Assembly: GCA_014381945.1 (NCBI GenBank)
Contig: JACNKQ010000034.1
Span: 1 to 47,792, forward strand
Reading direction: 5' to 3'
Source of the DNA: Actinomycetota bacterium
GTDB lineage: Bacteria > Actinomycetota > Acidimicrobiia > Acidimicrobiales > MedAcidi-G1
Length of the DNA stretch: 47,792 bases
A model generated the notes under the pieces. The model was not told where the DNA came from. It searched no databases and saw only the letters and a list, made by a program, of their open reading frames with translations. The translations under genes and the position numbers were made by a program. Positions 35,056 to 43,789 of this stretch are shown one piece after another; position 1 is the stretch's first letter, and every line of letters begins with the position of its first letter.

Positions 35056-36279
35056 ATGTCCGGACCGATGACCGGCGTGAAGGTGGTCGAGTTGGGTATC
35101 TGGGTGGCGGGCCCGGCGACGGGTGGGATCCTCGCCGACTGGGGCGCCGACGTGGTCAAGATCGAGCCCCCGTCCGGGGACCCGGCCCGCCTGTTCCGGA
35201 AGATCCTCGGTGGCGACCTGCCGAGCAACCCGCCGTTCGAACTCGACAACCGCTCGAAGCGCAGCATCGCCCTCGACCTGACCGACGCCGACGGCCTCGG
35301 GATCGCCCTCGACCTGATCGCCGAAGCCGACGTGTTCGTCACGAACCTCCGGATCGGCGCCCTCGAACGTCTCGGCCTCGACGCCGAAACGGTCTGTGGG
35401 CGGCTCCCCCGCCTCGTCTACTGCCACATCACCGGCTACGGCCGCGAGGGCGACGACGCCGACCGGGCCGCCTACGACATCGCCGCCTTCTGGTCCCGGT
35501 CTGGTATCGCCCACCTGCTGACCGAACCCGGCGGCGACCCGCCTTTCCAGCGGGGCGGCATGGGCGACCATTCGACGGGCATCTCGGGGGCTGCCGCCGT
35601 GTCGGCGGCCCTGTTCGACCGGGAGCGCACCGGCGAGGGGCAGCTGGTGTCGACGTCGCTGCTCCGGCAGGGCGTGTACACGATCGGGTTCGACGTGAAC
35701 ACGATGCTCATGTGGGGCACCCCGATGCGTCTCGGCACCCGTAGCACGATGGGCAACCCGTGCATGAACAACTACACCGCCGGCTGCGGAAGCCACTTCT
35801 GGATCGTCGGACTCGACGGCGAGCGGCACTGGCCGCCGCTGGCACGCGCTGTCGGCCACCCTGAGTGGATGGACGACGAGCGCTTCGTCACGGTCCGCGA
35901 ACGCGCCATCAACTCCACCGAGTTGATCGCCCTGCTCGACGAGGTGTTCGCCACCAGGACCATGGCCGAATGGGAGGAGGCGTTCGACGCCGAACCCGAG
36001 TTCTTCTGGTCGCCGATCAACGACCTCGAGTCGCTGCTGGGCGACCCGGCATTCCAGTCCTCGGGGGCGATGGTCGAGGTGCCCGACGGTTCATCGAGCA
36101 CGCTGATGGTCGCCTCGCCGGTCGACTTCGCCGGCACCCCCTGGGAGGCCCGTTCGACGGCCCCCGGGATCGGTGAGCACACCCGGGAGGTATTGACCCA
36201 GATAGGCCGCAGCGAAGGAGAAATAGAGGCCCTGCTGGCCGCCGGCACGGCGACCGATGGCGAAGGCGGGCTCGCCTAG
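35056..36279 (+). CDS. Family III CoA-transferase (CaiB/BaiF-like)
   Basis: 407 residues in the normal order: KVVELGIWVAGPATGGILAD at the N-terminus, VVKIEPPSGDPAR, NRSKRSIALDL, and YCHITGYGREG. The probable catalytic Asp is in GGMGDHSTGISGAAAV. The C-terminal domain includes WDDERF-type sequence (EWMDDERFVTVRERA). These enzymes move CoA between carboxylic acids through an aspartyl-CoA. ATG 35056 has GGGGAG upstream. The gene ends inside a 22-base palindrome shared with the convergent esterase gene, so both proteins end Gly-Leu-Ala. Confidence 0.9.
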   Translation: MSGPMTGVKVVELGIWVAGPATGGILADWGADVVKIEPPSGDPARLFRKILGGDLPSNPPFELDNRSKRSIALDLTDADGLGIALDLIAEADVFVTNLRIGALERLGLDAETVCGRLPRLVYCHITGYGREGDDADRAAYDIAAFWSRSGIAHLLTEPGGDPPFQRGGMGDHSTGISGAAAVSAALFDRERTGEGQLVSTSLLRQGVYTIGFDVNTMLMWGTPMRLGTRSTMGNPCMNNYTAGCGSHFWIVGLDGERHWPPLARAVGHPEWMDDERFVTVRERAINSTELIALLDEVFATRTMAEWEEAFDAEPEFFWSPINDLESLLGDPAFQSSGAMVEVPDGSSSTLMVASPVDFAGTPWEARSTAPGIGEHTREVLTQIGRSEGEIEALLAAGTATDGEGGLA

Positions 36280-36288
36280 GCGAGCCCG
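36267..36288. terminator. Perfect 22-bp palindrome holding both convergent stop codons
   Basis: The half-sequence CGGGCTCGCCT is followed by its exact reverse complement, centred between 36277 and 36278. It can fold as a nine-pair stem with CTAG at the tip. CTAG is at once the TAG stop of the plus-strand CoA-transferase and of the minus-strand esterase. There is no T-tract, so a bidirectional terminator role is only inferred. Confidence 0.5.
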
Positions 36289-37208
36289 GCCCGTAGGGCG
36301 GCGGCGATTCTGTCCCGGGCCTCTCCGGCGGCGGGGACCACGTCGGCAAATCCGACGAATCCGTGGATCATGGTAGCGAAGTTGTCGTACCCGACAGCGA
36401 CGCCGGCGGCGGCCAACGCCTCGGCGTATCCGGCGCCCTCATCCCGGAGCGGGTCGTGTCCGGCGGTCGACACGTGGGCCGGCGGCAGCCCAGACAGGTC
36501 GGTGGCCCGGATCGGGGCGGCGTAGGGATCGTCGGTGAACGGCAGCGACCCGACATAGTGCCGTGCGAACCAGTCCATGCCGTCACGGGTGAGCAGGGGG
36601 CCGTCGGCGTTTTCGTCCATCGAGGGCCAGCGGTCGAAGTCGAGGTCGGTGACCGGGTAGACGAGTGACTGGAAGGCGATGGCCGGGCCGCTGCGGTTGC
36701 GTGCCATCTGGCAGACGACGGCCGCCAGGTTGCCGCCGGCGCTGTCGCCGGCGACGGCGAGGCGCCCGGGATCGACGCCCAGGTCGGTGGCGTGGTCGGA
36801 CACCCAGCGGGTCGCCGCATAGCAGTCGTCGGCGGCGGCCGGGTACGGGTGCTCGGGCGCCAGGCGGTAGCCGACCGACGCGAACACGGCGCCGGTGCGG
36901 TTGGCGAGCCCCCGACAGGAGGCGTCGTGGCTGTCGATGCTGCCGAGCACCCAACCGCCCCCGTGGAAGAACACGACCACCGGACCCGGGTCGGGATCGT
37001 CGGCACCCTCGGGCCGGTAGACGCGCACCGGCAGGGGGCCTTGCGGTCCGGGCACCTCCAGGTCCTCGACGGAGGCCACCTCTTCGCCCGGCGGCGGATC
37101 CCGCTGTTCGAACACGGCCCGCACCTCCTGGGCCGTCATGGAACCCAGGTCGTCGAGCACCATCGGAAAGGCCTCGAGGATGGCTGTGAGAACCGGGTCG
37201 ATCGTCAT
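36276..37208 (-). CDS. Alpha/beta hydrolase fold-3 esterase (HSL family)
   Basis: 310 residues. The HSL signature HGGGWVLGSIDSHD forms the oxyanion hole; the nucleophile is Ser in AGDSAGGNLAAV, the acid is in AGHDPLRDEG and the His in MIHGFVGF. Such enzymes hydrolyse carboxyl esters of short to medium chains. ATG 37208 lacks a strong ribosome-binding site. The gene follows the GrdB-like selenoprotein gene on the same strand after 53 bases and may be co-transcribed with it. Its stop overlaps the convergent CoA-transferase stop by four bases. Confidence 0.9.
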   Translation of the reverse strand: MTIDPVLTAILEAFPMVLDDLGSMTAQEVRAVFEQRDPPPGEEVASVEDLEVPGPQGPLPVRVYRPEGADDPDPGPVVVFFHGGGWVLGSIDSHDASCRGLANRTGAVFASVGYRLAPEHPYPAAADDCYAATRWVSDHATDLGVDPGRLAVAGDSAGGNLAAVVCQMARNRSGPAIAFQSLVYPVTDLDFDRWPSMDENADGPLLTRDGMDWFARHYVGSLPFTDDPYAAPIRATDLSGLPPAHVSTAGHDPLRDEGAGYAEALAAAGVAVGYDNFATMIHGFVGFADVVPAAGEARDRIAAALRAGLA

Positions 37209-37261: not shown

Positions 37262-38152
37262 TCAGGCGCCTTCGGCGGCCCGGCGGTCGTCGTCGTACTG
37301 GTACTGGGGCTCCGGGCTGCGTTCGCTCCGGGTGTCGCCCTCGGCGCTGACGACCCCGTTGCTGAGGCCGCTGCTGGCGCTGTCCTTCCATGAATCGTCG
37401 TCGGACCAACGGACACCGGTGTCGACGATGGTGCCCGGCGCATCGATGGTGGCGAAGGCGGCGAACGCCCGCCGGAGCAGGTCACGTTGGAAGTCGGGTT
37501 CGTGGGGGCGGCCGGCGGTGTAGCCGAGCGGCATGTCGACGAACGCCGCCCGGGGCGGGTTGGCCGCAGCCGTGATGCTGTGGGCGGCGGTGAGGCAGAG
37601 GGTGGGGACGCCGGCTTCCTCGAGCGCCCGTGCGACCAGACCCACGGTCTGGTGGCAGACCGGTCAGACGGGCACCAGCAGCGCCAGGTCGACGTCCATA
37701 GCCGCGACAGCTTCGACTACCTGTGGCACCAGTTCGGCCTCGGCACGGCGCACCGAGTAGATGCCGCCCATGAAGGCGACGGCCTCGGGGGCAAGCCCTC
37801 CGATGACACCCTCGTCGACGAGTTCGTGGAGTCGGTCGATCGGGAACACGATGTTGGGGTCCTCACGGGCGGGCACCAGGTCGTAGGCGAAGTGCGTGAG
37901 GCGCACGTCGACGGCCGGCTCGTCGGTGCGGACCATGCGGATCCCGGTGTCGTCGTTCCAGTGGAAGGCCACGTGTCCCCGGCGATAGGCGCCGCCGGAG
38001 GCCAGCAGGGCGACGCTCGACTCGGCGACCGGCTTTGCCAGCGGCGTCCAGGGCGGCGGGTCGGGGCGCTCGGCCCAGCGGTAGGGCTCGTAGCCCAGGG
38101 CGTCGTACTGCTCGCGGGTGCGGGCGATGTAGTCCACGGGTGCGCTGCTCAC
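37262..38152 (-). CDS. GrdB-like selenoprotein (glycine/sarcosine/betaine/D-proline reductase family), in-frame UGA
   Basis: 296 residues if TGA at 37664-37666 is read as selenocysteine, Sec163. The frame is continuous on both sides: upstream SSVALLASGGAY and DPNIVFPIDRLHELVDEG, then LALLVPV-U-PVCHQT, then VGLVARALEEAGVPTLCLTA. The UxxC motif (Sec163, Cys166) stands where GrdB/PrdB-type reductases carry their catalytic Sec. A hairpin 17 bases after the UGA fits a bacterial SECIS. I start at GTG 38150-38152. Classical GrdB works with pyruvoyl and GrdA/GrdC partners; none is present here, so the electron donor and substrate are open. The tail from about residue 250 is acidic and low-complexity. 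A nonsense mutation is the alternative, but the coincidence of motif, position and hairpin argues against it. Confidence 0.82.
37635..37653 (-). promoter_or_regulatory. SECIS-like hairpin downstream of the in-frame UGA
   Basis: On the minus strand ACCAGAC pairs perfectly with GTCTGGT (7 bp) around a five-base loop CGTGG. Seventeen bases separate the UGA from the loop, within the range known for bacterial SECIS elements (about 16-37), and the loop has a G at its second position as the loose consensus asks. A competing stem GGTCTG/CAGACC just 5' of it is also possible. Confidence 0.6.
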
Positions 38153-38209
38153 GGGGCCATCATCGCATGTCAGAGGCCGGGGGCGAGCCAGGATGCCTCC
38201 CGACACGAC

Positions 38210-38230
38210 GAGTGTTTACACTCAGAGTGT
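38210..38230. promoter_or_regulatory. Three alternating GAGTGT/ACACTC half-sites (operator candidate)
   Basis: GAGTGT at 38210-38215, ACACTC at 38218-38223 and GAGTGT at 38225-38230 form two overlapping inverted repeats with spacers of 2 and 1 bases. They cover the -35 box of the merR promoter and lie in the 97-base region divergent from the selenoprotein gene. Binding by the encoded MerR-type protein is the simplest inference. Confidence 0.55.
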
Positions 38231-38249
38231 CTGCTCCTACAATCAGGGC
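38215..38249 (+). promoter_or_regulatory. Promoter TTTACA-N17-TACAAT, leaderless merR-men transcript
   Basis: TTTACA at 38215-38220 and TACAAT at 38238-38243 are each one base from the sigma-70 consensus and are spaced by exactly 17 bases. The six bases after the -10 box lead directly to the ATG at 38250, so transcription probably starts on the start codon. This is the best promoter match I see in the window. Confidence 0.7.
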
Positions 38250-38984
38250 ATGTCGGAAGCCCGCACGCTGCGCGTCGAGGACCTGGCCGCCGAGGCCGGC
38301 ACCAGCGTCGACACCATCCGCTACTACCAGCGGCTGCGTCTGCTCGCCCCGCCTCGCCGCGTCGGGCGCCACTCCGAGTACGGCGACACCCATGCCGCAC
38401 GGCTGGCCGAGATCCGCCGGCTGGCCGACGACGGCTTCACGCTCGCCCAGATCCGCGACCTCGGCGACAAGCCGACCGACGACCTGGGCCGGCTCGCCGA
38501 CGGGGCGCGTGCCAGATCGCTCTCCCGCTCCGAGGTCGCCGAACAGGCCGGCGTGCCGGAGGGCCTCGTGGTCCTGCTGGTCGACAACGGGCTGCTCCAG
38601 CCCCTCGAAGGCGACGACCCGGAGCAGCGCTTCGACGATGGCGCCGTGGCGATGGTGCAGGCCGGGCTCGCCATCAGCAACGCCGGCATCCCGCTCGACG
38701 AACTCGTCCACCTCGCCGCCGACCATGCCACCAACGTCGACGAGGTCGTCCGGCGGGCCGTCGAACTCTTCGAGGCACACGTCAAGGCGGATGCCGACCC
38801 GGACCAGGACCTGGCCGAGGTGGTCAGGACCCTGCTGCCCGCCGTCGTCCGGCTTGTGGCCCAGCACTTCCACCGCACCCTCGTAGCCCGGGCCCGCGAG
38901 CGCATGGGCGACGGCGACCGGCACGCCCTGGCCGACGCCCTCGTCGCCGCCGACGACCTTGAGGTCCGCTGCGAATGGCCCTGA
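38250..38984 (+). CDS. MerR-family transcriptional regulator
   Basis: 244 residues. The winged HTH at about residues 5-75 is typical: RVEDLAAEAGTSVDTIRYYQ, then LLAPPRRVGRHSEYGD and IRRLADDGFTLAQIRDL. A second region (about 90-135) with SEVAEQAGVPEGLVVLLVDNGLL looks like another HTH-like helix pair. The C-terminal half is helical and not recognised; there is no Cys-rich metal-binding tail. It overlaps the start of menF by 10 bases, so it is the first gene of the men operon and probably controls it. The start is ATG 38250, given the promoter six bases upstream. Whether it also controls the divergent selenoprotein gene is open. Confidence 0.88.
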   Translation: MSEARTLRVEDLAAEAGTSVDTIRYYQRLRLLAPPRRVGRHSEYGDTHAARLAEIRRLADDGFTLAQIRDLGDKPTDDLGRLADGARARSLSRSEVAEQAGVPEGLVVLLVDNGLLQPLEGDDPEQRFDDGAVAMVQAGLAISNAGIPLDELVHLAADHATNVDEVVRRAVELFEAHVKADADPDQDLAEVVRTLLPAVVRLVAQHFHRTLVARARERMGDGDRHALADALVAADDLEVRCEWP

Positions 38985-40288
38985 ACCCCCTTTCCCATGA
39001 AACCGACGATGTCCTTGCGGCCACCACCGTCGAACTCGACGCCTCGACTGCTGCGGCCGACCCGCTCGCCTGGCTGGCGGCCTCCCCCGGCGACGCCTGG
39101 TACTGGGAGGTACCCGAGGACGACATCGCCTGGGTCGGGCTCGGCCGGGCGGCCTCCGTCCAGCCGGCCGGCAAGGAGCGGTTCGCCGATGCAGCCCTGG
39201 TGGCCGAACGGATCCTGGACCGGCTCGTCGTCGAAGCACCCGACGGCGCGCCCCTCCCCCGCCTGGCAGCCGGCTTCGCCTTCGACCGGAATGAGCCCGA
39301 TGAACACTGGCGGCCACTCGGCTCCGGGCGCCTGGTCCTGCCTTCTGTCCAGGTGCTGCGACACGACGGGCGCTCGTGGATGACCGTCATCGACGGTCGT
39401 CCGGGCCCCGGTCCCTCGACGCCGGCTCCCCTGCCGCTGGAGCATCTCGAGGTCGACCCCGCCGACTGGTCCGACGACACCGGGCGCGAGCACTACCGCC
39501 GCTTGATCCGCCTGGCCCTGGACGCCATCGGCCGTGGTGATCTCGTGAAGGCCGTTCCGTGCCGTTCGATCAGCATCGACCTCCGGCCGGACCTTCCCCT
39601 GCTCCTGGCCACCCTGCGCAGCCAGTACCCCGGGTGCGCCACCTTCTGCGTGGGCGACGGGGCGACTGCCTTCGTGGGGGCAACCCCCGAACGGCTCGCT
39701 GCCCTCCGTGGGGGCCGACTGCACACCGCCGCCCTCGCAGGGTCGGCGCCCCGCCACGACGACCCGACCATCGACGCCGCCCTCGGCCAGGGCCTGTTGA
39801 CCAGCCCCAAGGAACGCAACGAGCACGCCGTGGTGGTCGATGCCGTGACCGCAGCCCTCGAGGGGCTCGGAATCGACCCCCGGCATCCGATCGAACCCGA
39901 ACTGCTGAGGCTCCACGGCATCCAGCACCTCCACACCCCGATCGACGCCGACCTGCCCGACGGCATCGGCCTGCTCGACCTGGTCGGTGCCCTCCACCCG
40001 ACACCGGCCGTCTCCGGCCACCCCGCCGACCTCGCCTCGGGTCTCCGCAGTCGACACGAGGGCATGGAGCGCGGCTGGTTCGCCGGCCCCGTGGGCTGGC
40101 TGGACGCCGCAGGCGACGGCGAGTTCCGGGTGGCTCTGCGGTCGGCGCTGGTCGGGCCCTCCGGCACGGTCCTGTACGCCGGTGCCGGCGTCGTCGCAGG
40201 CAGCGATCCGGACCGCGAGCTGCTCGAGACCGATGTGAAGTTGCGGGCGATGCTGGGCCCGGTGCTGGCCGCATCGGAGGGATCGTGA
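38975..40288 (+). CDS. menF: Isochorismate synthase (menaquinone pathway)
   Basis: 437 residues, chorismate-binding enzyme fold. It converts chorismate to isochorismate, the first dedicated menaquinone step. The C-terminal catalytic domain shows GDLVKAVPCRSISI, AFVGATPERLAALRGG, HTAALAGSAPR, LLRLHGIQHLHTPI, LHPTPAVSGHPAD and AGAGVVAGSDPDRELLETD. The last contains the Glu residues expected for the magnesium site. The pairing with menD favours MenF over salicylate or EntC-type roles. ATG 38975 overlaps the merR stop by 10 bases; GAGG lies about 12 bases upstream. Its TGA overlaps the menD GTG (GTGA at 40285-40288). Confidence 0.92.
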   Translation: MALNPLSHETDDVLAATTVELDASTAAADPLAWLAASPGDAWYWEVPEDDIAWVGLGRAASVQPAGKERFADAALVAERILDRLVVEAPDGAPLPRLAAGFAFDRNEPDEHWRPLGSGRLVLPSVQVLRHDGRSWMTVIDGRPGPGPSTPAPLPLEHLEVDPADWSDDTGREHYRRLIRLALDAIGRGDLVKAVPCRSISIDLRPDLPLLLATLRSQYPGCATFCVGDGATAFVGATPERLAALRGGRLHTAALAGSAPRHDDPTIDAALGQGLLTSPKERNEHAVVVDAVTAALEGLGIDPRHPIEPELLRLHGIQHLHTPIDADLPDGIGLLDLVGALHPTPAVSGHPADLASGLRSRHEGMERGWFAGPVGWLDAAGDGEFRVALRSALVGPSGTVLYAGAGVVAGSDPDRELLETDVKLRAMLGPVLAASEGS

Positions 40289-41982
40289 ACGCCGACCCCG
40301 TCGCCGTCCAGGCGGCTCTGCGGGCGTTCTTCGCCCAACTGGTCGCCGGCGGCGTCGCCCACGTCGCCGTCTCTCCGGGCTCCCGTTCCACGCCGCTGAC
40401 CATCGCCGCCGACCGCACCGACGGCCTGGACCTGTCGATCCACCTCGACGAACGGGCCGGCGCCTTCTTCGCCCTGGCCCTGGCACGCACCACCCGGCGA
40501 CCCGTGGCGCTGGTCTGCACGTCGGGCACCGCCGCCGCCAACTACCTGCCTGCCGTCGTCGAGGCCTTCCACTCCGGCGTGCCGCTCCTCGTGGTCACCG
40601 CCGACAGGCCACCCGAACTGCAGGGCCGTGGCGCCCCCCAGACCATCGACCAGCAGAACCTCTACGGCACCCACGTCCGCCGGTTCGTGGAAGCGGCGGT
40701 CGCCGGATCCGAACCGCCTGCGGCTGCTGCGGCACTGGCCGTTTCGCTGCTCGGGTCGGCCGTCGGACCTGCGACCGGGCCGGTCCACCTCAACTGGCCG
40801 CTGCGCGAGCCGCTTGAGCCACCGGACACCGATCCTGCACCGGTTGACCTGCTGGCCGTACCCGGTCCGGCAACCTGGCCGCGCCCGCCCCCGCTCCCCG
40901 ACACGCCCCGTGGCCTGCTGGTCGCCGGACCCATGGGCCTCGACGAGGCCGGCATCACCGCAGTGGCCGACCTCGCCGTCCGCACGGGCTGGCCCGTCGT
41001 GGCCGACCCGGCCTCCGGGCTTCGCTGCGGACCACACGTTGAGACGGCGCCAGTGGTGGCCTGCGGCGAGCACCTCTTCCCCACACCGTGGGCCGACCGG
41101 CACGTACCCGACGTGGTGGTCCAACTCGGCGCCATGCCGACCAGCAGGGCCTACCGGCTCTGGATGGAGCGGAACCGCCCGACGACGGTCATCACCGTCG
41201 ACCACCTGGGGCGCCATCCCGACGCCGCCCTCGCCGTCACCGACCGGATCGACCACGAGCCGGGGGCATGGGCCGTCACGGTCGAGGCACCGGTGCACGA
41301 CAGCACCGACTGGACCTCGGCATGGACCGGCGCGGAGGAGGCAGCGACTGGTGCCGTCGCCGACTTCGCCGCAGCAGCGCCGTTCGACGAGCCGTCCGTG
41401 GTCGCCGCCATCGACGCCCTGACCGGCCCCCTGAACCTGGTCGTCGCCAACTCGATGCCGATCCGCGACCTCGACGCATTCCTCCCCGCATCGACCCGGC
41501 CCCTGCGCGTGCTCGCCAACCGCGGCGCCAACGGCATCGACGGCCAGGCCTCGACCGCCTTGGGCGTGGCCGTCGGCTCGCCCGATCCCACCGTGCTGCT
41601 GACAGGCGACCTGGCGCTGCTCCACGACCTCTCGGGCCTCACCGCCGCCAGCCGGCTGGGCGCCGACCTCACCGTCGTCGTGGTCGACAACGACGGCGGC
41701 GGCATCTTTTCGTTCCTGCCGATCGCCGACTCCCCGACCGTCGACCACCATCGGCTGTTCCACACGCCGCACGGCCTCGACCTGGCCCACGTCGCCCCGC
41801 TCTGCGGAGCCTCGTACACCGTGGCCACCGACCGATCGACGCTCGACACAGCGTTGGCATCCACCTTCGGGCAGCCGGGGCTCCACATCGTGCACGTCCC
41901 GGTCGATGCGGCCACCAACGTCGGACTGCACCGGGAAGCCGCCGCCGTGGTCGAGGCGTTGCTCCAGGAGGTCGGACCGTGA
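40285..41982 (+). CDS. menD: 2-succinyl-5-enolpyruvyl-6-hydroxy-3-cyclohexene-1-carboxylate synthase
   Basis: 565 residues, thiamine diphosphate-dependent. It joins isochorismate and 2-oxoglutarate to make SEPHCHC. Recognisable MenD features are HVAVSPGSRSTPL near the N-terminus, HLDERAGAFFALALA with the ThDP-activating Glu, ALVCTSGTAAANYLPA, PQTIDQQNLYG, and the metal/diphosphate site around TGDLALLHDLSGL with VVDNDGGGIFSFLP. GTG 40285 overlaps the menF stop by four bases, giving translational coupling. The last codons overlap menH in the same way. Confidence 0.96.
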   Translation: MNADPVAVQAALRAFFAQLVAGGVAHVAVSPGSRSTPLTIAADRTDGLDLSIHLDERAGAFFALALARTTRRPVALVCTSGTAAANYLPAVVEAFHSGVPLLVVTADRPPELQGRGAPQTIDQQNLYGTHVRRFVEAAVAGSEPPAAAAALAVSLLGSAVGPATGPVHLNWPLREPLEPPDTDPAPVDLLAVPGPATWPRPPPLPDTPRGLLVAGPMGLDEAGITAVADLAVRTGWPVVADPASGLRCGPHVETAPVVACGEHLFPTPWADRHVPDVVVQLGAMPTSRAYRLWMERNRPTTVITVDHLGRHPDAALAVTDRIDHEPGAWAVTVEAPVHDSTDWTSAWTGAEEAATGAVADFAAAAPFDEPSVVAAIDALTGPLNLVVANSMPIRDLDAFLPASTRPLRVLANRGANGIDGQASTALGVAVGSPDPTVLLTGDLALLHDLSGLTAASRLGADLTVVVVDNDGGGIFSFLPIADSPTVDHHRLFHTPHGLDLAHVAPLCGASYTVATDRSTLDTALASTFGQPGLHIVHVPVDAATNVGLHREAAAVVEALLQEVGP

Positions 41983-42779
41983 CAGCCGACCTGCACGTCG
42001 AGGTCGAGGGCGACGGCCCGGCGCTGCTGATGCTCCACGGCTTCACCGGATCGACCGCCGCCATGTGGCCGCTCGGCCGCACAGTCACCGACCGGCGGAT
42101 GGTGCTCGCCGTCGACCTCCCGGGCCACGGCCGTACCGGCCTGCTGGACCCCCCCGACCACCGCTTCGAGTCCACGCTCGATGCCCTCGTCCACATCCTC
42201 GACCAGCGGGACATCGACGAGGCCGACGTGCTCGGCTACTCGATGGGGGGGCGCCTCGCCCTGGGCCTCGCCGTCCGCCACCCGGAACGGATCAGGTCCA
42301 CCATCCTCATCGGAAGCACCGCCGGCTACCCCACGGATGCCGAGCGGGCGGCACGACGGCGCTCCGACGCAGCGCTGGCCGACGACCTGGTCGAGCAGGG
42401 CCTCGAGTGGTTCGTCGACCACTGGATGGCCCTGCCGCTGTTCGCCTCCCAGCAGCGTCTCGGAGACCTCTTCCTCGCCGGGACCCGTGCCCAACGGCTC
42501 TCCAACGATCCCGACGGGCTGGTCGCCAGCCTGTTGGGCTCCGGCACCGGGGCACAGCCGTCGTTCTGGGGTGGGCTCCACGGTGTCAGCGGACCGGTTC
42601 TGCTCGTCGTCGGCGAGGAGGACGCCCGCTACCGGCGCCTGGCGTTCCGCATGGCGTCAGGACTGCCGAATGCGACCATCGAGGTGGTCCCCGAGGCGGG
42701 CCACGCCGCCCACGTGGAGAACCTGCCAGCCGTGGCGACGGCGGTCGCCGAGTTCCTCGCAGGCGTGGACGGCACGTGA
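41979..42779 (+). CDS. menH: MenH-type alpha/beta hydrolase (SHCHC synthase)
   Basis: 266 residues. In the menaquinone pathway this enzyme removes pyruvate from SEPHCHC to give SHCHC. It has MLHGFTGSTAAMW, DLPGHGRTG, nucleophile Ser in VLGYSMGGRLAL, Asp in VVGEEDARYR and His in EAGHAAHVEN. The GYSMGGR and GHGRT forms match MenH rather than general hydrolases, and the position between menD and menC supports this. GTG 41979 shares GTGA with the menD stop and its own TGA shares GTGA with menC. Confidence 0.9.
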   Translation: MTADLHVEVEGDGPALLMLHGFTGSTAAMWPLGRTVTDRRMVLAVDLPGHGRTGLLDPPDHRFESTLDALVHILDQRDIDEADVLGYSMGGRLALGLAVRHPERIRSTILIGSTAGYPTDAERAARRRSDAALADDLVEQGLEWFVDHWMALPLFASQQRLGDLFLAGTRAQRLSNDPDGLVASLLGSGTGAQPSFWGGLHGVSGPVLLVVGEEDARYRRLAFRMASGLPNATIEVVPEAGHAAHVENLPAVATAVAEFLAGVDGT

Positions 42780-43789
42780 GCAGGCCCGAGGTCACCGGTG
42801 CCCGACTGGTCCGCCGAACCCTGCGGATGCACCGTCCCGTGGCGACCGCACACGGCCCGGTCGGAGACCGTGAGATCCTGCTGCTGGGCCTCTCCGACGC
42901 CGACGGCAACATCGGTTGGGGCGAGGCCGCCCCACTTCCCGGCTTCACGCCCGAGACCGCCGACGAGGCCGGCCAGGCCATCCTCGACTGGCTGGCCGAG
43001 GACGAACGAATCGAGCCACCGGCCACGCCGACCGCCAGGGCCGCCGTCGACGGGGCGCTCCTGCACCTGGCGGCCCGTGCCGCAGGCCTCCCGCTGCACC
43101 GGCACCTGAACCCCGACAGCCCCTCGTCGTTCGCCGTGTCGGCCCTCGTCGCAGGCGCCACACCCGACGACCTGGCCGCTGCCGGCCGGGCCGCCGTCGA
43201 AGCCGGCCACCGGACGCTGAAGGCCAAGGTCGGGGTGCTCGCCTTCGACGTAGACCTCGACCGGGTTGCAGCCCTGCGGGACGCCGTCGGACCCGGGGTG
43301 GCGATCCGCCTCGACGCCAACGGCGCCTGGGACGTCGACGAGGCCCTGGGCCACCTCGAGCAACTCGCCGGATTCGACATCGAGTTCGTCGAGGAACCGG
43401 TGGCGGGGATCGACGCACTCGCCGCCGTGCGGGCCGGCTCCCCCATCCCCATCGCAGTCGACGAATCCGCCACGTCGCCCGAAGGGGTCGCCGCCGTGAT
43501 CGCAGCCGGCGCCACCGACCTCTTGGTGCTCAAGCCGTCGGCTGTCGGCGGGATCGTCGTGGCCGCCGAACTGACCACCATCGCACGGGAGGCGGGCCTC
43601 GGGATCGTCATCACATCGCTGCTGGACGGTGCCGTCGGCGTCTCGCACGCTGCCCACCTGGCGTCGGCCCTCGGCGCCATCGACCCGGCCCCCGGCCTCG
43701 CCACCTCGGCCCTCATCGCCGAAGACGTCGGCGAATCTCCGAGGCTCGAAGGTGGACGCCTGATGCTCTCCGCCGAAGACGGTCGCTAA
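42776..43789 (+). CDS. menC: o-Succinylbenzoate synthase
   Basis: 337 residues, enolase superfamily (muconate-lactonising subgroup). It dehydrates SHCHC to o-succinylbenzoate. The catalytic motif TLKAKVGV holds the two Lys of the KxK base; the metal ligands are Asp in RLDANGAWDV, Glu in EFVEEPV and Asp in AVDESATSP; the second Lys is in VLKPSAVGG. The lid domain begins WGEAAPLPGF. GTG 42776 overlaps the menH stop (GTGA). The TAA stop overlaps the convergent metallohydrolase stop by four bases (CTAA at 43786-43789), so the men operon ends here. menE, menB and menA are not in the window. Confidence 0.94.
   Translation: MSRPEVTGARLVRRTLRMHRPVATAHGPVGDREILLLGLSDADGNIGWGEAAPLPGFTPETADEAGQAILDWLAEDERIEPPATPTARAAVDGALLHLAARAAGLPLHRHLNPDSPSSFAVSALVAGATPDDLAAAGRAAVEAGHRTLKAKVGVLAFDVDLDRVAALRDAVGPGVAIRLDANGAWDVDEALGHLEQLAGFDIEFVEEPVAGIDALAAVRAGSPIPIAVDESATSPEGVAAVIAAGATDLLVLKPSAVGGIVVAAELTTIAREAGLGIVITSLLDGAVGVSHAAHLASALGAIDPAPGLATSALIAEDVGESPRLEGGRLMLSAEDGR

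Follow-up and report, generated by a model that had tools for sequence, protein, structure and literature searches.

A PrdB-like selenoprotein without a pyruvoyl partner in an aerobic-type marine Acidimicrobiales genome

Introduction

Does a reading frame that continues across an in-frame TGA in an aerobic-type marine actinobacterium encode a genuine selenoprotein, and if so, which reaction could the protein catalyze? The frame lies in a 47,792-nucleotide stretch of DNA (here called the window; contig C64) from an Acidimicrobiales MAG of 2.49 Mb that is 97.5% complete. An earlier note, made from the letters of the window, had described a stand-alone GrdB-like selenoprotein missed by ordinary gene calling and had suggested an unstudied reductase. 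As checks, it had proposed an alignment of homologues and a search of the genome for sel genes and tRNA-Sec; a genome lacking these genes, together with homologues having neither Sec nor Cys at residue 163, would have pointed to a pseudogene or a sequencing error. Neither situation was encountered, and the sections below describe the gene, its decoding, its family, and its possible function.

Results

Reading frame and conservation of the Sec codon

The PrdB-like selenoprotein gene occupies positions 37262 to 38152 on the minus strand, a strand that the earlier note had left unstated although its coordinates and its frame across the TGA hold. From a GTG at 38152 to the stop codon TGA at 37264 to 37262, the frame comprises 296 codons (a 296-amino-acid product), and its sole interruption is the TGA at 37666 to 37664. 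This codon corresponds to residue 163, the predicted Sec of a UPVC motif in the context LLVPV-U-PVCHQTVG. The start codon is putative, as initiation at another in-frame GTG farther upstream (38206) would lengthen the product slightly. Gene calling with translation table 11 would split the gene into two pieces (37262 to 37645 and 37664 to 38206), in agreement with the claim that it escapes ordinary annotation. Since the window is GC rich, with 196 open reading frames (ORFs) of at least 100 amino acids, the open frame by itself is weak evidence for a gene.

A scan of species genomes recovered eight loci, all in Acidimicrobiales-type MAGs, and the TGA falls in the identical column in all seven relatives that cover the site (other MAGs; 51 to 93% identity). 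We then surveyed 296 genomes of the class (E ≤ 1e−15), 86 of which contain a homologue, and nearly all of the ∼110 class-wide matches carry TGA at the Sec site. In a 70-sequence tree, the column is TGA in 61 sequences, Cys in 7 (reflecting at least five separate changes), and Ala in 2, and the TGA is present in all 22 members of the subfamily to which the window protein belongs. Among the Cys forms are those of two alphaproteobacteria, Haematobacter and Roseomonas, whose genes stand alone. At residue 163, the homologues thus carry Sec or, in some cases, Cys, and they keep the frame past the TGA, the pattern of a bacterial selenoprotein. Downstream (3′) of the TGA, dN/dS between the window protein and six relatives was 0.13 to 0.20, which indicates purifying selection; the upstream (5′) values leave out two relatives (L056 and L057), whose N-terminal length difference leads to misalignment. 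By this measure, purifying selection acts on the predicted protein both before and after the UGA. We also considered the terminal TGA (37264 to 37262) as a second Sec codon and rejected it because the sequence beyond it shows no conservation.

SECIS hairpin

A bacterial SECIS hairpin of 17 nt (37636 to 37652, minus strand), with a 6-bp covarying stem and a 5-nt apical loop (CGUGG), lies 14 to 30 nt past the first base of the UGA (positions 15 to 31 counting from the U). Across 36 distinct sequences, standard pairs made up 94.4% of the cells, compared with 71.7% in shuffled alignments, and changes on both sides of the stem were seen in 45 cells, compared with 16 in shuffles. The covariation score was 0.579, against 0.192 for shuffled data, and was reached in none of 500 shuffles, while sliding the partner by 1 to 3 columns left at most 42% of the cells paired. 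Compensatory changes occur in five of the six stem pairs, as expected of a SECIS element. Single-sequence folding gave weak signals (z-score of −1.35 for the window and positive values for the orthologues L015 to L017), so that the hairpin is settled only by the covariation over the 36 sequences. The conserved TGA, its Cys and Ala replacements, the downstream dN/dS, and the covarying hairpin together go beyond chance, and the window gene is, judged by its sequence, a genuine selenoprotein gene.

The same genome encodes a second PrdB-like selenoprotein (G000:C38, 70672 to 71175, minus strand; L002 and L020) with the motif UPLC. Its subfamily has a long C-terminal extension (about 390 amino acids), and downstream of the gene are others of luciferase-like and xanthine-dehydrogenase type (assigned by eye). 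The stem-loop reads CAGACC-GUG-GGUCUG in the window and GCGUACC-GUG-GGUACGC in this paralogue, with the loop equidistant from the UGA.

Sec-decoding machinery

The genome encodes tRNA-Sec (67.5 bits, gathering score of 47; anticodon TCA according to ARAGORN), selA (387.8 bits), selB (264.7 bits), and selD (362.5 bits), the last with one in-frame TGA of its own, and therefore holds the complete tRNA-Sec, SelA, SelB, and SelD set of a bacterium that makes selenoproteins. The tRNA-Sec gene shares a contig (C5) with selA and selB, which are ∼12 kb away; the stretch of C5 that was annotated first holds a sigma factor gene, nadE, and glnA rather than selA and selB. Among the surveyed genomes, selA was found in 80 of the 86 with a PrdB-like gene and in 121 of the 210 without one (P of about 2e−10 by Fisher's test). 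As the earlier note had remarked, no GrdA, PrdA, thioredoxin, or Sec genes were recognized in the annotated neighborhood of the window gene; the Sec genes are located elsewhere in the genome.

Family placement

The window protein matches PF07355 (GRDB) with 27.2 bits (gathering cutoff, 22) over the C-terminal part of the profile, which places it in the superfamily. The best NCBIfam model is PrdB (TIGR04483), at 143.9 bits against a curated equivalog cutoff of 300, while GrdB (TIGR01917) gives 35.8 bits against a curated cutoff of 602. The PrdB, GrdF, GrdH, and mixed selenoprotein-B models each match all 45 aligned relatives, with the best E value for PrdB. In the 70-sequence tree, the protein belongs to a 22-member, all-Sec subfamily (support of 99/95) that is separate from the clostridial PrdBs. 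The earlier term "GrdB-like" was therefore right about the superfamily and the UxxC motif, but the nearest family is PrdB (144 bits) and not GrdB (36 bits).

With PrdB, the 26-kDa selenoprotein subunit of D-proline reductase (an amino-acid-reducing enzyme of anaerobes from gut and mud) from Terrisporobacter and Peptoclostridium, the window protein shares UxxC with Sec at the matching column and a common core with conserved His, Asp, and Arg residues (about 34% identity over 210 residues). It differs from these proteins in its motif (UPVC instead of UGTC), its extra residues (∼35 N-terminal and ∼50 C-terminal), its score below the PrdB cutoff, and its separate subfamily in the tree; moreover, Terrisporobacter prdB sits in a prdC-prdA-prdB cluster, whereas the window gene has no such PrdA/PrdC cluster. 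Proteins annotated as members of the "glycine/sarcosine/betaine reductase selenoprotein B family" in aerobic alphaproteobacteria (WP_035710215.1 and WP_207415257.1) are likewise stand-alone, share the N-terminal extension, and have CPxCHQT at the equivalent place, but they carry Cys for Sec, have cob genes and selO as neighbors, and are only 34 to 35% identical. The subunits of glycine, sarcosine, and betaine reductases (GrdB, GrdF, and GrdH) share the PF07355 domain and the UxxC region; they are longer (about 430 amino acids), the window protein scores 36 to 41 bits against their cutoffs of 600 to 800, and their GrdE partner is absent here.

Absence of a pyruvoyl partner

PF09338, the model of the pyruvoyl-type subunit (GrdE/PrdA), had no match in the genome itself or in the three nearest relatives, although the same search returned 316 to 381 bits for GrdE-type genes in another lineage of the family (f45). 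The PrdA model TIGR04480, which is without a strong positive control, also had no match in these four genomes. Neither the PrdA pyruvoyl proprotein expected alongside PrdB nor the GrdE partner expected alongside GrdB was thus found, and the lack of such a partner, which the earlier note had remarked on for the surroundings of the gene, extends to the whole of this 97.5%-complete genome. The genome also contains several matches to heme-copper oxidase and is therefore of an aerobic type. With PrdA and GrdE missing and the genome of an aerobic type, a classical D-proline or glycine reductase is excluded to the extent that sequence allows. We conclude that the window protein belongs to the GRDB superfamily and is nearest to PrdB, yet it is neither a D-proline nor a glycine reductase, and the missing partner suggests that it carries out some other reduction.

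Structure and proposed mechanism

The AlphaFold2 model of the window protein (pLDDT of 93) places Sec163 in a turn between a strand (156 to 160) and a helix (164 to 179) and puts Cys166 in the first helical turn. An activated chalcogen nucleophile and its resolving thiol are usually arranged in this way. Five polar residues (H87, D91, D98, N100, and R201) are near-invariant among relatives. A sequence search found no relatives of solved structure, and Foldseek returned no PDB match at E ≤ 0.001 and no match to a thioredoxin fold. Generic Rossmann and periplasmic-binding folds, with VIA-align Z values up to 7.5, remained at an uninformative level and were set aside.

The most probable account, which we hold with some confidence, is that the gene encodes a functional GRDB/PrdB-superfamily selenoprotein that needs no counterpart of the pyruvoyl subunit (PrdA/GrdE) of its clostridial relatives. 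As to its activity, we favor a stand-alone Sec/Cys (UxxC) reductase in the cytosol of an aerobic-type cell, a role that we infer from the family. SelB and Sec-tRNA would insert Sec at UGA-163, and the Sec163 selenolate would attack a small electrophilic substrate to give a selenenyl adduct. Cys166 would then resolve this adduct through an Se-S bond, to be re-reduced, presumably, by thioredoxin or by a low-molecular-weight thiol (e.g., mycothiol). Substrate binding would fall to His87, Asp91, Asp98, Asn100, and Arg201, which plausibly shape a pocket. In a protein with no pyruvoyl group, the Schiff base by which D-proline or glycine is activated could not form, and the substrate would therefore have to be electrophilic itself.

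Gene neighborhood and menaquinone genes

On the same strand, 53 bp downstream of the selenoprotein gene, lies a LipP1-type, hormone-sensitive-lipase-like esterase gene (36276 to 37208), in an order kept in the family-level lineage of the window (f1). A MerR-family regulator gene (38250 to 38984, plus strand; a longer ORF starts at 38193) is divergent from the selenoprotein gene and is followed on the plus strand by an isochorismate synthase gene that overlaps it (menF; 38975 to 40288), a menD domain (40318 to 41574, within ORF 39559 to 41982), and a menC domain for o-succinylbenzoate synthase (42818 to 43735, within ORF 41906 to 43789). The arrangement of the selenoprotein gene, divergent from merR-menF-menD-menC and with the esterase gene behind it, characterizes f1. 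The divergent intergenic region contains an imperfect dyad (38202 to 38231) with TTTACA/TACAAT promoter-like spacing that is conserved between the two genera of f1; it is probably a MerR operator and may act in both directions.

In f45, menB is directly behind the selenoprotein gene in seven loci (L061 to L067), where stop and start overlap or abut, and about 450 bp farther on in an eighth (L068). The menB of L062 is a true menB (TIGR01929, 409 bits; cutoff, 343). Adjacency to men genes is nevertheless confined to two of the four family-level lineages of the subfamily (f1 and f45): no menF, menD, menC, or menB was found near the gene in the other two (f19 and f21), and near the phylum-level loci there was none apart from a weak crotonase-type match. 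Across the whole family, no single neighbor is kept; many genes of acyl-CoA, luciferase-like, and enoyl-CoA types turn up repeatedly, but they are common in these genomes.

Discussion

Possible roles and alternative explanations

Given the men neighbors, the first candidate class of substrate is an electrophile related to quinones or naphthoate. A specific form of our explanation is accordingly that the selenoenzyme acts in or protects menaquinone or naphthoquinone metabolism; it might, for instance, reduce or de-adduct a CoA-thioester intermediate or an electrophilic naphthoquinone. The two lineages with men neighbors involve different men genes in different arrangements, which favors such a link, as does the conserved dyad between the selenoprotein gene and merR-menF-menD-menC in f1. 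Against it, f19 and f21 have no men genes, and in f1 the selenoprotein gene is also followed by the esterase gene; the adjacency could be due to chance. We treat the adjacency as a lead and not as proof and regard the menaquinone-linked form as possible but rather unlikely; its fullest version, a PrdB-type UxxC selenoenzyme of menaquinone or naphthoquinone metabolism that works without a pyruvoyl partner in aerobic-type Actinomycetota and shares a MerR regulator with the men operon, we consider doubtful.

The protein might instead be a general antioxidant or thiol-disulfide selenoprotein, peroxidase-like or thioredoxin-like rather than a substrate-specific reductase. UxxC resembles redox-active motifs and would be equally suited to a peroxidase or a disulfide reductase, the organism is of an aerobic type, and a C-terminal CxxC tail in the f19 and f21 orthologues could pass electrons. 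The conserved polar residues, on the other hand, suggest a specific pocket common to the substrate-binding PrdB, and a thioredoxin-fold match is absent, which leads us to rate a general role as improbable, though worth keeping in mind. That the gene encodes an ordinary subunit of D-proline (or glycine, sarcosine, or betaine) reductase with partner genes elsewhere is very unlikely: PrdB is the best family model and the Terrisporobacter prdCAB cluster supplies a PrdB of 34% identity, but the score is under half of the PrdB cutoff, the subfamily is separate from the clostridial PrdBs, the genome is of an aerobic type, and a search able to detect GrdE-type genes in f45 found no PrdA or GrdE in this genome or its three nearest relatives. 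A pseudogene or a sequencing error producing a false TGA, suggested by the single MAG window and the split gene call, is refuted by a TGA shared among independent MAGs (51 to 94% identity), the downstream constraint, the SECIS hairpin, and the Sec machinery.

The PrdB name in marine data

A PrdB-like selenoprotein gene in a genome with no recognized pyruvoyl partner bears on how marine selenoproteins are named. "Proline reductase PrdB" (pfam07355, UxxC) was reported in 2008 from the Global Ocean Sampling data, comprising 235 sequences with Sec and 110 with Cys, as one of the commonest and most abundant selenoprotein families of ocean metagenomes (PMC2398784), and reviews assign PrdB its clostridial function (PMC13188914 and PMC9312934). 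These proteins, like the window protein, are marine, belong to pfam07355, and have UxxC; the study gives only their numbers and the name PrdB, and the set, likened here by description and not by sequence, probably includes the window subfamily. As far as we found, PMC2398784 mentions neither a missing PrdA nor men neighbors, and a literature search covering few subscription journals returned no paper on stand-alone PrdB-like proteins in aerobes or Acidimicrobiia. The phrase "unstudied reductase" is thus apt insofar as the searched literature held no biochemistry, but the kind itself has been known since 2008; the new elements here are the absence of the partner, the subfamily itself, and the link to men genes.

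The PrdB name implies an anaerobic Stickland enzyme, and under that name the family is abundant in surface-ocean data. The window adds a case in which "PrdB" members with a bona fide SECIS element and Sec machinery occur in aerobic-type marine Acidimicrobiales without PrdA, their essential partner, and the marine label is therefore probably misleading and wrong as to function. A Sec-dependent reaction that is common in the ocean may thus have escaped characterization, and the men adjacency offers a first concrete substrate class.

Variants in the wider family

The two sequences with Ala for the Sec codon (L082 and L083; family f36) have the motif APMCSRT. No selA match was found in their genomes (G158 and G194), which are only 80% and 64% complete, and it is possible that the catalytic residue was lost along with Sec decoding. 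Two loci of family f56 (L137 and L139, in G400 and G370) are PrdB-like genes with two in-frame TGAs in the active-site motif, reading UPIUHQSV, so that UxxU replaces UxxC. The C-terminal CxxC tail (e.g., CRACVGFDD) is present in the f19 and f21 orthologues L015, L016, L017, L059, and L060, is degenerate in f45, and is missing from the family of the window; it could be a built-in electron relay. Finally, L072, L073, L080, L093, and L094 (families f31, f34, and f42) form a UPMCHRSVG subfamily with partly kept surroundings that differ from those of the window (named by eye): an alpha/beta hydrolase, a beta-propeller-like protein, a LacI regulator, an MFS transporter, and a dehydrogenase.
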